Assembly (NCBI RefSeq): GCF_024227715.1
Contig: NZ_CP100448.1
Coordinates: forward strand, 2,935,655-2,999,654
Direction: 5' to 3'
DNA length: 64,000 nucleotides
DNA from: Halomarina litorea
GTDB lineage: Archaea > Halobacteriota > Halobacteria > Halobacteriales > Haloarculaceae
Under the pieces are notes generated by a model, which had not been told where the DNA came from, searched no databases, and saw nothing but the letters and a program-made list of their open reading frames with translations. A program made the translations under genes and the position numbers. This document shows, in pieces, positions 16,246 through 48,343 of the stretch (the first letter of the stretch is position 1; each line of letters starts with the position of its first letter).

Positions 16246-16893
16246 ATGCTCAGCTACGTCACCACCAACCCCGGCAAGGTCCGCGAGGCCGAACAGTACC
16301 TGGAGGAGGTCCGGGCGGTCGACTTCGACTACACGGAGATTCAGGCCTCCGAACTCGGTCCCATCGCCGCCCGCGGCGCCCGCGAGGCGTTCGCCCACGT
16401 CGGCGGCCCGGTCATCGTCGACGACGCCGGCCTGTTCGTTGACGACCTGGACGGCTTCCCCGGCCCCTACTCGGCGTACGTCGAGGACACCCTCGGCGTC
16501 GAGCGGGTGGGCGAACTGGCGCGACAGGAGGGCACGCTCCGCGCGCACTTCCGGTGTGTCATCGCCTACTGCGACGGCGAGGGGTTCGCCGCGACGCCCG
16601 AACCCGTCGACCGGGGCGAACGGCGGGGGCAGGACCTCGCGGCGGACGACCGCGCGACGGCCAGCACCGACGACACCGTCGACGCCGGCGACGTCCCCGT
16701 CAAACTGTTCGAGGGGTCGGTCCCGGGGCGCATCGTCGAACCGCGCGGCGAGGGCGGGTTCGGCTACGACCCCATCTTCGAGCACGACGGGGAGACGCTC
16801 GCCGAGATGAGCACCGAGGAGAAGAACGCCGTCTCACACCGCGGGCGTGCGCTCGCGAAGTTTGGGGAGTGGTTCCAAGCGCGAACGCAGTGA
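16246..16893 (+). CDS. rdgB: XTP/dITP pyrophosphatase (RdgB/HAM1 family)
   Basis: A 215-residue non-canonical purine NTP pyrophosphatase that removes dITP and XTP from the nucleotide pool. Motifs are YVTTNPGKVREAEQYL at the N terminus, VIVDDAGLFVDDLDGFPGPYS, EGSVPGRIV and GFGYDPIFE, then TEEKNAVSHRGRAL. A hydrophilic insertion at about residues 127-161 is larger than in most homologues. The last dozen codons run into a 111-bp tandem repeat, so the native C terminus may have been altered when the repeat arose. Confidence 0.95.
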   Translation: MLSYVTTNPGKVREAEQYLEEVRAVDFDYTEIQASELGPIAARGAREAFAHVGGPVIVDDAGLFVDDLDGFPGPYSAYVEDTLGVERVGELARQEGTLRAHFRCVIAYCDGEGFAATPEPVDRGERRGQDLAADDRATASTDDTVDAGDVPVKLFEGSVPGRIVEPRGEGGFGYDPIFEHDGETLAEMSTEEKNAVSHRGRALAKFGEWFQARTQ

Positions 16894-17161
16894 GCGCTTG
16901 GAACGAGACGAGACGCAGCGCGAGCGGAGCGAGCGACCGTCTCGGCATAGTTCGCCGAGCGCCAGCGAGGCGAGGGGGTTCGCTTGCGAACGCGAACGCA
17001 GTGAGCGCTTGGAACGAGACGAGACGCAGCGCGAGCGGAGCGAGCGACCGTCTCGGCATAGTTCGCCGAGCGCCAGCGAGGCGAGGGGGTTCGCTTGCGA
17101 ACGCGAACGCAGTGAGCGCTTGGAACGAGACGAGACGCAGCGCGAGCGGAGCGAGCGACCG
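16881..17161. repeat. 111-bp perfect tandem repeat, 2.5 copies
   Basis: Two identical 111-bp units (16881-16991 and 16992-17102) are followed by a partial third (17103-17161). Each begins GCGAACGCAGTGAGC and contains GCGAGCGGAGCGAGC and the hairpin GTTCGC-TT-GCGAAC. The unit is 37 codons long, so all frames stay open through it and give spurious repetitive proteins. The first unit contains the rdgB stop codon. The internal strings resemble the degenerate GAACGNAGTGAGC-type intergenic sequence common in haloarchaea. Confidence 0.95.
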
Positions 17162-47411: not shown

Positions 47412-47540
47412 GTACCAGCGGTTAGGGGTCGTGGGGCAAATAGCTGCCCGGTCACTCGATATTTCCGGACGTTCGTCCGGTCGCGATGAGTCGCTACGTT
47501 GAAGTACGGCGGTACAGAATTCAGGAATGCACAGCATGGA

Positions 47541-47633
47541 GCACCGTTGTGTCATCGAGCGAAGCGAGATGAGACTCGGTGCGAACGAGTGCAACGAGTG
47601 AGCACCGTTGCTGAGCGGTTCTGAAAGAACCGC
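47541..47633. repeat. Partial copies of the tRNA-Gly 5' end upstream of the gene
   Basis: GAGCACCGTTG, the first bases of tRNA-Gly with their flank, occurs at 47539-47549 and 47600-47610 before the true gene at 47655-47665. Between the last two lies the dyad GCGGTTCT-GAA-AGAACCGC (47615-47633). The short copies lack the rest of the tRNA and cannot fold as tRNAs. Confidence 0.6.
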
Positions 47634-47656
47634 GAGGGTCGGTGCGACCGAAGGGA

Positions 47657-47727
47657 GCACCGTTGGTCCAGTGGTAGGACATTAGCTTCCCAAGCTAATA
47701 GCCCGGGTTCAATTCCCGGACGGTGCA
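47657..47727 (+). tRNA. tRNA-Gly (anticodon CCC)
   Basis: Acceptor GCACCGT pairs with ACGGTGC, discriminator A. The anticodon stem TTAGC/GCTAA holds loop TTCCCAA, giving anticodon CCC (reads GGG). T arm CCCGG-GTTCAATT-CCGGG. CCA is not encoded and no intron is visible. It is flanked on both sides by short partial copies of its own ends. Confidence 0.96.
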
Positions 47728-47801
47728 TTCTGCTGCGAACGTGAACAGCGAATGCGGAACTTCGGGAATTGAACCAGCGAGCGACCGCAGGGAGCGAGCG
47801 A

Positions 47802-47980
47802 GGTTCATAATTCCCGGACAGTGTAGCCTGCGAGGTCGTCGGAACGCCTCGCATTCCGACTGCCAGCCGAATCGCGAGACGTTCGACGAGAACGAACGTG
47901 GCGAACGGATGCAGAACTTCGGAGTCGAACTGGGGAGCGGCAGCGAATAGCGCGAGTGCGGTTCGATTCCCGAACGACGC
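47802..47980. repeat. Degenerate copies of the tRNA-Gly 3' end downstream of the gene
   Basis: The T-arm/acceptor sequence GGTTCAATTCCCGGACGGTGCA of the tRNA recurs, degenerate, as GGTTCATAATTCCCGGACAGTGTA (47802-47825) and GGTTCGATTCCCGAACGACG (47960-47979). Each is preceded by related filler containing CAGAACTTCGG/CGGAACTTCGG and GAGCG strings. They look like remnants of integration (att) events or of tRNA-end duplication; no integrase is present within the window here. Confidence 0.55.
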
Positions 47981-48343
47981 TCACACTCGCTCTATCTCCT
48001 CGACGGTCCGCTCCGACGCCACGTTCCCCGTGTTCAGCGTCCCGGCGGGTTCGAACAGCAGGACCCGGGCCTCCTCTGTGGCGACGGGTCGGTGTTCGAC
48101 GCCGGCGGGGACGACGCAGAGTTCGCCCTTCCCGAGGGTCACGTCCCCCTCGTCGCGGAGTTCGATGGTCAACGCCCCGTCCACGACGAGGAACAGTTCG
48201 TCCGCGTCGGCGTGGTGGTGCCAGTCGAACTCGCCGCGGAGTTTCGCGAGTTTGACGTGCTGGCCGTTGAGTTCGGCGGCGAGACGGGGCGACCAGTACT
48301 CCTCGATGGCCTCGAACGACTCCGCGAGGTTCACGATGTCCAT
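47981..48343 (-). CDS. Cupin-domain protein
   Basis: A 120-residue single-domain cupin. Metal-ligand motif 1 is WHHHADADELFLVVDG (His42-His44, Glu49) and motif 2 is VVPAGVEHRPV with the second His. Such small cupins bind a metal and act as isomerases, dioxygenases or sensors; no substrate can be inferred. Its stop abuts the last degenerate tRNA-Gly fragment. Confidence 0.92.
   Translation of the reverse strand: MDIVNLAESFEAIEEYWSPRLAAELNGQHVKLAKLRGEFDWHHHADADELFLVVDGALTIELRDEGDVTLGKGELCVVPAGVEHRPVATEEARVLLFEPAGTLNTGNVASERTVEEIERV

Follow-up and report, generated by a model that had tools for sequence, protein, structure and literature searches.

Direct and inverted copies of tRNA ends flank tRNA-Gly(CCC)

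The window analyzed here is a 64,000-nt stretch of the genome of the haloarchaeon Halomarina litorea. It contains a tRNA-Gly(CCC) gene within an array of repeats whose neighboring genes encode NAD synthase and a cupin protein. The original prediction held that this tRNA is flanked on both sides by fragments of itself, with 5'-end copies upstream at about 60-nt spacing and two degraded copies of the T-arm and 3' end downstream, and each of these points was borne out. The parts of the locus, all on the + strand, are as follows.

47539..47656: upstream array, with tRNA 5'-end copies at 47539-47549 and 47600-47610, then the real tRNA 5' end
47657..47727: tRNA-Gly(CCC) gene; the repeated block A is its final ~22 nt, from the T-loop to the 3' end
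47728..47762: unit 1 trailer, containing a small hairpin (TTCTGCTGCGAACGTGAACAGCGAATGCGG), plus the A* portion mirroring the trailer and acceptor strand (from sequence and fold)
47763..47775: unit 1 A*, an inverted T-arm copy, CGGGAATTGAACC, the exact reverse complement of 47706-47718
47776..47801: unit 1 core, purine-rich, AGCGAGCGACCGCAGGGAGCGAGCGA; in the predicted fold, GC pairs alternate with tandem G.A mismatches below a GCA end loop
47802..47823: unit 1 direct copy A of the tRNA 3' end, GGTTCATAATTCCCGGACAGTG
47824..47959: unit 2 (decayed), with trailer, inverted copy near 47921-47931, and core
47960..47979: unit 2 direct copy of the tRNA 3' end, decayed, GGTTCGATTCCCGAACG at 47960-47976

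In the 64 kb, GAGCACCGTTG occurs only at 47539, 47600, and 47655, the last being the 5' end of the tRNA itself, with spacings of 61 and 55 nt; its reverse complement is absent. Downstream, the highest score against the 26-nt 3' end of the tRNA was 13.5, and none of 2000 dinucleotide shuffles of the same stretch reached 13. A chance origin of the copies was rejected on this result and on the genome-wide counts of self and non-self matches given below. The second direct copy adjoins the stop codon of the convergent cupin gene (47981-48343, - strand).

We also found inverted copies that had not been predicted: CGGGAATTGAACC, the weaker and imperfect GGAGTCGAACT at 47921-47931, and CGGTGC twice (47577-47582 and 47640-47645), which together with GA-rich hairpin loops lies between the 5'-end copies. 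Both sides of the tRNA have the layout A, loop, inverted A, loop, A. Unit 1 folds as an A*-core-A hairpin (RNA z -3.0, DNA z -2.2), in which the T-arm copy paired with its inverted copy forms the outer stem around an inner part of G.A and GC pairs, and the upstream array folds as strong hairpins (z -5.6 and -6.4). The decayed unit 2 folds no better than its shuffles (z -0.3 and -0.8). Both downstream cassettes at tRNA-Gly(CCC) are old and decaying. Neither of the two mechanical ORFs crossing the array (75 and 100 aa) matched a Pfam family, and by this comparison no element genes or integrase were found between the repeats. At gathering score, Rfam families in the window were limited to two tRNAs, with no match to RtT or any other RNA family.

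Copies of the local 3' end lie behind about half of the tRNA genes

We compared the last 26 nt of each of 42 tRNA genes of the source genome, extracted with their flanks using RF00005, with the 400 nt downstream at a score of at least 16. A copy of the gene's own 3' end lay downstream on the same strand for 21 of the 42 genes, compared to 7 of 1722 mismatched pairs, a control that takes in tRNAs with near-identical ends; no self copies were detected upstream or on the opposite strand at this score. The Gly(CCC) copy in the window, at 13.5, is below the cut-off and lies outside the 21. Similar numbers were obtained for G108, a haloarchaeon of another family (21/42 compared to 22/1722 mismatched), and for G007, from the same genus as the source (20/42 compared to 12/1722), so that a feature peculiar to Gly(CCC) was rejected. 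Two further genomes, G037 and G389, had self copies at score 16 behind 11 of 37 and 10 of 38 tRNAs (records analyzed out of 46 and 47 found), while G175, a non-haloarchaeal member of the same phylum, had none among 16 tRNAs in 400 kb. The largest array, at Ser-tga of G108, contains five copies. The original prediction would have been overturned if the fragments were generic intergenic strings found around many unrelated genes. For tRNA ends this fails, because the copies match their own tRNA. Apparently, the units are short, non-coding hairpins, and they lie behind about half of the tRNA genes of the source haloarchaeon. Separately, ARAGORN called a tRNA-Stop(tta) with a 31-nt intron in the source genome (L066), probably a miscalled intron-containing tRNA.

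The hairpin pattern GATTYGAAN{15,45}TTCRAATC occurs at 12 places in the source genome, 11 of them downstream of a tRNA and one inside tRNA-Ser, and its reversed control at none. Across 246 genomes of the phylum, the pattern was present 1 to 24 times each in 44 of 45 genomes of the same order (reversed control, 0/45) and, nearly always once, in 21 of 201 genomes outside it (control, 6 genomes). A scan of named genomes returned at least 120 stretches with the pattern; among those, 85 were downstream of a tRNA, one was inside a tRNA, and 34 had no tRNA within 700 nt, the last group including unrelated bacterial palindromes and haloarchaeal hairpins whose tRNA possibly lies beyond the stretch. Among the matches listed, 64 of 80 records were haloarchaeal by title, three of these 64 being titled only 'Euryarchaeota archaeon Ods'. 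Like anatomy behind a tRNA was also found in two Woesearchaeota MAGs, Actinarchaeum halophilum, and one Rhodospirillaceae MAG (pattern 3, 1, 8, and 2 times in the genomes of L192, L224, L208, and L246; control 0). One of these non-haloarchaeal units, L224, has a TAGA/GCGT internal loop in common with a haloarchaeal core. Two plasmids, Haloferax gibbonsii pHG2 and a Natronorubrum bangense megaplasmid, carry a unit beside their own tRNA gene. Among the papers listed by keyword searches, with most subscription papers outside their reach, no description of haloarchaeal tRNA-end units was seen.

The units share a common anatomy

From 105 units in three genomes, the order in the sense of the tRNA is trailer, small hairpin, A* (an imperfect inverted copy of the tRNA end and trailer), core, and A, with cassettes standing singly or in tandem behind tRNA genes. 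The spacer has a median length of 100 nt (5-95% range, 75-211). The direct copy mostly starts at the last T-stem or first T-loop base (offset 3-4 within the 26-nt tRNA end in 66 of the 105 units), and in 90 units it ends with the tRNA 3' end. A* is also specific to its tRNA, with a mean score of 11.9 against the unit's own tRNA compared to 8.9 (sd 2.1) against others, and an above-average score for its own tRNA in 91/105 units. An inverted T-loop was recognized 15-75 nt before the copy in 76 units. GNA or GNNA loops closed by two pairs were present in 53 of the 76 segments between this T-loop and the copy, compared to 25.4 in shuffles; GNA loops and sheared G.A pairs form very stable DNA hairpins. 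The DNA folding signal of the inner segment is weak (z -0.60, compared to -0.36 for the other strand). In the alignment with L389, conservation was too high for base-pair covariation.

The hairpins could be kept for their role in a read-through transcript, in termination, 3' processing, or as a spacer small RNA like the E. coli RtT RNA, which is annotated on the E. coli unit in RefSeq. In line with such a function, direct copies at score 16 are confined to the tRNA strand, 65 of 76 inner segments are rich in purines on this strand, and RNA folding of the inner segment is stronger there (z -1.26) than on the other strand (z -0.49). Against it, half of the tRNAs have no unit, and the turnover described below is fast.

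Cores are shared between tRNAs, while ends are local

Two cores were followed across haloarchaeal genomes. The first, CCGAGGTTCTGCG..CGCAGGTTCTCGG, occurs at 19 places in 14 of 146 genomes from six families. Using ARAGORN, 17 of these places were located 45-562 nt downstream of a tRNA, representing 12 kinds, one of which (L313, called Gly-ccc) may be a miscall, as its end does not resemble that of Gly; the other two places had no tRNA in the fetched stretch. The second, CAGGGAGGWGCTTYGCTCCGACCG, was found in 11 of 116 genomes at a total of 18 places, and 17 of these lie 47-356 nt downstream of a tRNA, with 11 kinds represented. Both cores are therefore nearly confined to tRNA neighborhoods. 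The sequence that follows the core matched the local tRNA end at a score of at least 14 in 14 of 17 places for each core, compared to 6/262 and 9/254 for other tRNA kinds; at the remaining 3 of 17 places in each family, the local end did not follow at this score. Across five genomes, 101 of 113 strong copies fit their own tRNA best or equally well. Three copies clearly match the end of a different tRNA encoded in that genome (Arg-cct in Arg-tct, Leu-tag in Leu-taa, and Arg-cct in Lys-ttt), after four of seven rows marked as foreign were dropped as the adjacent tRNA-Met gene itself. For five more strong copies, a different tRNA was a slightly better fit than the local one.

These data bear on the proposal, made with the original prediction, that the fragments record repeated insertion and loss of elements at tRNA 3' ends. 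The involvement of tRNA 3' ends stood, as did insertion or loss, through the precise presence and absence of units between close species (see below). The part that was not supported is ordinary integrated elements, given the median spacer of 100 nt, the regular anatomy, the presence of units at roughly every second tRNA gene of three genomes, and the lack of exact matches to the two tested cores in viral contigs and of matches to one of them in phage records. Scars of viruses or plasmids that used the tRNA 3' end as att site and lost all their genes would agree with the use of tRNA genes by archaeal integrases and with known tandem integration, as far as the available text of PMC8371274 describes them. 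We consider such an origin very improbable: the units have a regular size of ~100 nt and a common anatomy, no Pfam family was found in the two ORFs that cross the window array, and the two cores, being beside 12 and 11 kinds of tRNA and mostly followed by the local 3' end, are not the scars of one virus. Neither core had an exact match in a viral contig collection, and blastn of one core against 50,697 phage records returned no match. Viral transport of the units was thus not supported by exact patterns of two cores in viral contigs and one core in phage records.

An exact scan of the viral contigs for the hairpin pattern returned 8 stretches, of which six (L289-L294) are other palindromes, one is inside a tRNA, and one (L295) was not matched on re-scan. 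Near-perfect palindromes such as GGATTTGAACCATGTTCCTCTGG..CCAGAGGAACATGGTTCAAATCC were seen in two Bifidobacterium contigs and several viral contigs (L181, L182, L289-L294, L296). They resemble a tRNA 3' part in both orientations and are probably a different feature.

Whole units are present or absent between close relatives

We compared G037 and G389, whose Gly loci are 92-94% similar. One genome has a unit and the other has none at initiator Met and also at Ser-tga; where the site is filled, the native trailer comes after the distal copy, and where it is empty, after the tRNA itself. Differences of whole or partial units were also seen at Val-gac, Asp, Leu-tag, Ser-gga, and Phe, while orthologous units are retained in both genomes at Arg-tcg and Tyr. 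The borders of the whole-unit differences lie inside the repeated tRNA end. At the inner Leu-tag event, the two A copies are unlike after TTCGAATCC, which indicates an exchange in the T-loop; this is the one informative event that narrows the border to TTCGAATCC. The flanking copies at Met and Ser-tga are compatible with duplicates of one target, whereas those of the inner Leu-tag event are unlike. Since the events are unpolarized, some may be losses by recombination between direct repeats. Two other repeats were noted in this genus: a ~200-nt dispersed repeat upstream of the G037 tRNA-Gly(CCC) (L002 1226-1457), present at many places with roughly 74-87% identity, and a ~60-nt stretch downstream of the G389 initiator tRNA-Met (L365 1230-1300) with many scattered relatives across the genus.

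The initiator Met locus was surveyed across the genus of G037 and G389 (39 genomes searched, 30 loci fetched, 27 readable). One homologous cassette is present at 8 of the 27 readable loci, and at most 19 are empty; 21 were scored empty, yet L404 and L412 hold a cassette with a decayed distal copy. Between the source genome (G000) and G007, arrays occur at 16 tRNAs in both, and only those of Tyr, Arg-gcg, and Leu-gag were more alike than the top 1% of mismatched pairs. This rate of change, with 13 of 16 array pairs no more alike than that threshold and up to 19 of 27 initiator Met loci of one genus without a unit, counts against hairpins kept for a function in the transcript, and we regard that explanation as quite unlikely.

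Upstream arrays and a non-tRNA site have a similar layout

Upstream of Gly(CCC), the first nine nucleotides of this tRNA recur at 10 of 30 loci, including that of the window, with positions of about -53 to -65 in nine of the ten and additional copies at -111 to -189 in some. Among all tRNAs, exact 9-mers of the 5' end occurred within 200 nt upstream for only 3 of 201, compared to 3 of 7876 mismatched pairs; the 5' arrays are therefore real but rare, and the idea that every tRNA has an upstream counterpart of its downstream feature was rejected. The upstream array at Gly(CCC) looks like a related, rarer form, and its A-loop-A*-loop-A layout, common to both gene ends, suggests that 5' arrays may stem from the same process acting at the other end of the gene.

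The window also contains one site of this style away from any tRNA, at 16872-17161 behind a Ham1/ITPase-like gene (16246-16893). It reads GTTCCAAGCGC - GAACGCAGTGA - GCGCTTGGAAC, followed by the core GAGACGAGACGCAGCGCGAGCGGAGCGAGCGACCGTCTCGGC, and 16880-17161 is a 111-bp tandem repeat of 2.5 copies with 100% matches. Because GGTTCCAA is T-loop-like, the site may be off-target.

These sites raise a purely mutational alternative, in which a template switch during replication or repair at highly transcribed tRNA genes folds back to copy the tRNA end in inverted and direct orientation, tandem slippage multiplies the product, and no mobile unit is involved. Such fold-back copying could account for the A-A*-A layout and its occurrence at a tRNA 5' end and behind a protein gene (window 16872-16946), and tandem duplications do exist (window 16880-17161 and Phe of G037). 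However, identical cores at many tRNA kinds in six haloarchaeal families and differences of whole units between filled and empty sites speak against it, and on balance we find this origin unlikely.

T-loop recombination of hairpin cassettes as a possible mechanism

We propose, with a probability of roughly 0.6, that the fragments around Gly(CCC) are parts of recombining, probably mobile, tRNA-linked hairpin cassettes that would cross over in the T-loop. Recombination of this kind is the simplest account of units that recur with shared cores, bear the ends of the local tRNA, and are present or absent with exact borders; the mobility of the cassettes is suggested by the comparison of genomes. 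The original prediction had offered, as one option, a mechanism that copies tRNA ends, and this fits the anatomy of direct and inverted copies well. Insertion or excision of a cassette would take place through recombination in the conserved T-loop GTTCRAATCC, with the incoming cassette supplying the tRNA 3' end and displacing the old end downstream. Under this proposal, a working tRNA would be obtained only if the new cassette provides a matching acceptor strand. The imperfect A*-core-A hairpin, with the T-loop duplex as its outer stem, is by analogy arranged like the single-stranded attC site of integrons and is possibly what a putative recombinase sees, and cores may gain their local A and A* arms through T-loop-primed copying.

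Several observations count against the cassette model. Half of the tRNAs in three genomes, 26 of 37 in G037, and 28 of 38 in G389 have no copy at score 16, and 29 of the 105 units have no recognizable inverted T-loop. One place with core CAGGGAGGWGCTTYGCTCCGACCG, L430, has neither a tRNA nor a T-loop. The copies are mostly local despite the shared cores, while simple cassette transfer would yield more foreign ends.

More tentatively, and with less than an even chance of being right, the units could represent gene-less mobile DNA without fixed ends, in the form of a hairpin core bearing T-loop arms. This DNA would spread between tRNA genes at the universal T-loop, through recombination or primed copying, each time acquiring direct and inverted local tRNA ends. 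Such DNA would be very common in haloarchaea and found at single loci in other archaea and bacteria, with the E. coli tyrT repeats among them.

What appeared to be an isolated curiosity, the fragments of one tRNA or one E. coli locus, becomes a general process acting on up to half of a genome's tRNA genes. It bears on tRNA 3' ends as recombination hot spots, and the filled and empty sites of close species provide a natural experiment for tracing the enzyme. Because the arrays lie directly behind the gene, tRNA 3'-end maturation may be affected.

Comparison with known systems

Integron attC arrays appear similar in having tandem units, each of which closes with an imperfect hairpin (outer stem, internal loop, inner stem, and variable end) and contains a short conserved core site. 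The R boxes of attC have the consensus GTTRRRY and RYYYAAC. The corresponding haloarchaeal site is the tRNA T-loop, GTTCRAA/TTYGAAC, with C at the fourth position, which does not match that consensus. Presence or absence is exact at the core site in integrons; the haloarchaeal borders lie inside the repeated tRNA end, narrowed to TTCGAATCC by one informative event. Unlike integron cassettes, the units in the window have no recognized gene and are attached at the tRNA itself.

Archaeal elements of the SNJ2, SSV, and pNOB8 types use a tRNA and then restore it, according to the available part of PMC8371274. They are viruses or plasmids that encode an integrase, while the haloarchaeal units are ~100 nt. 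The PATE, MITE, and small mobile repeats of Haloquadratum are non-autonomous, and some have palindromes near their ends (PMC3119063). In the available text of that source, they are defined by terminal palindromes or inverted repeats, several are IS605-related, and copies of tRNA ends are not described.

The 178-bp repeats of E. coli tyrT/tyrV are closer. Behind tyrV of E. coli K-12, AATCCTTCCCCCACCACCA (T-loop to CCA) recurs at 160, 338, and 516 nt. The spacer contains an inverted copy, GGGGAAGGATGAGAAGCT, whose score of 12 was equaled or exceeded in 1 of 1000 shuffles, along with a core of several hairpins that have GAGCGCCAGCGAG loops; its fold is A*-core-A. These repeats, known at tyrT since the 1970s, were found in 4655 of 5426 E. 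coli genomes, where their number varies from 1 to 9 places (median 2), and the 30 E. coli matches listed were all annotated as RtT sRNA and/or tRNA-Tyr. Like the haloarchaeal units, they are direct tandem copies of their own tRNA 3' end that start in or next to the T-loop, with an inverted copy and a hairpin core in the spacer, although the haloarchaeal inverted T-loop is unrecognizable in 29/105. The E. coli units are nearly identical at 178 nt, whereas the haloarchaeal ones are mostly shorter, vary from unit to unit, and have cores common to several tRNAs; the inverted copy is also farther from the direct copy in E. coli (about 80-100 nt, with none in the last 90 nt), and the haloarchaeal units occur at many tRNAs rather than at tyrT/tyrV. 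With this common layout, the E. coli tyrT 178-bp repeats are the closest known kind, and the haloarchaeal units would be a genome-wide, modular form of it.
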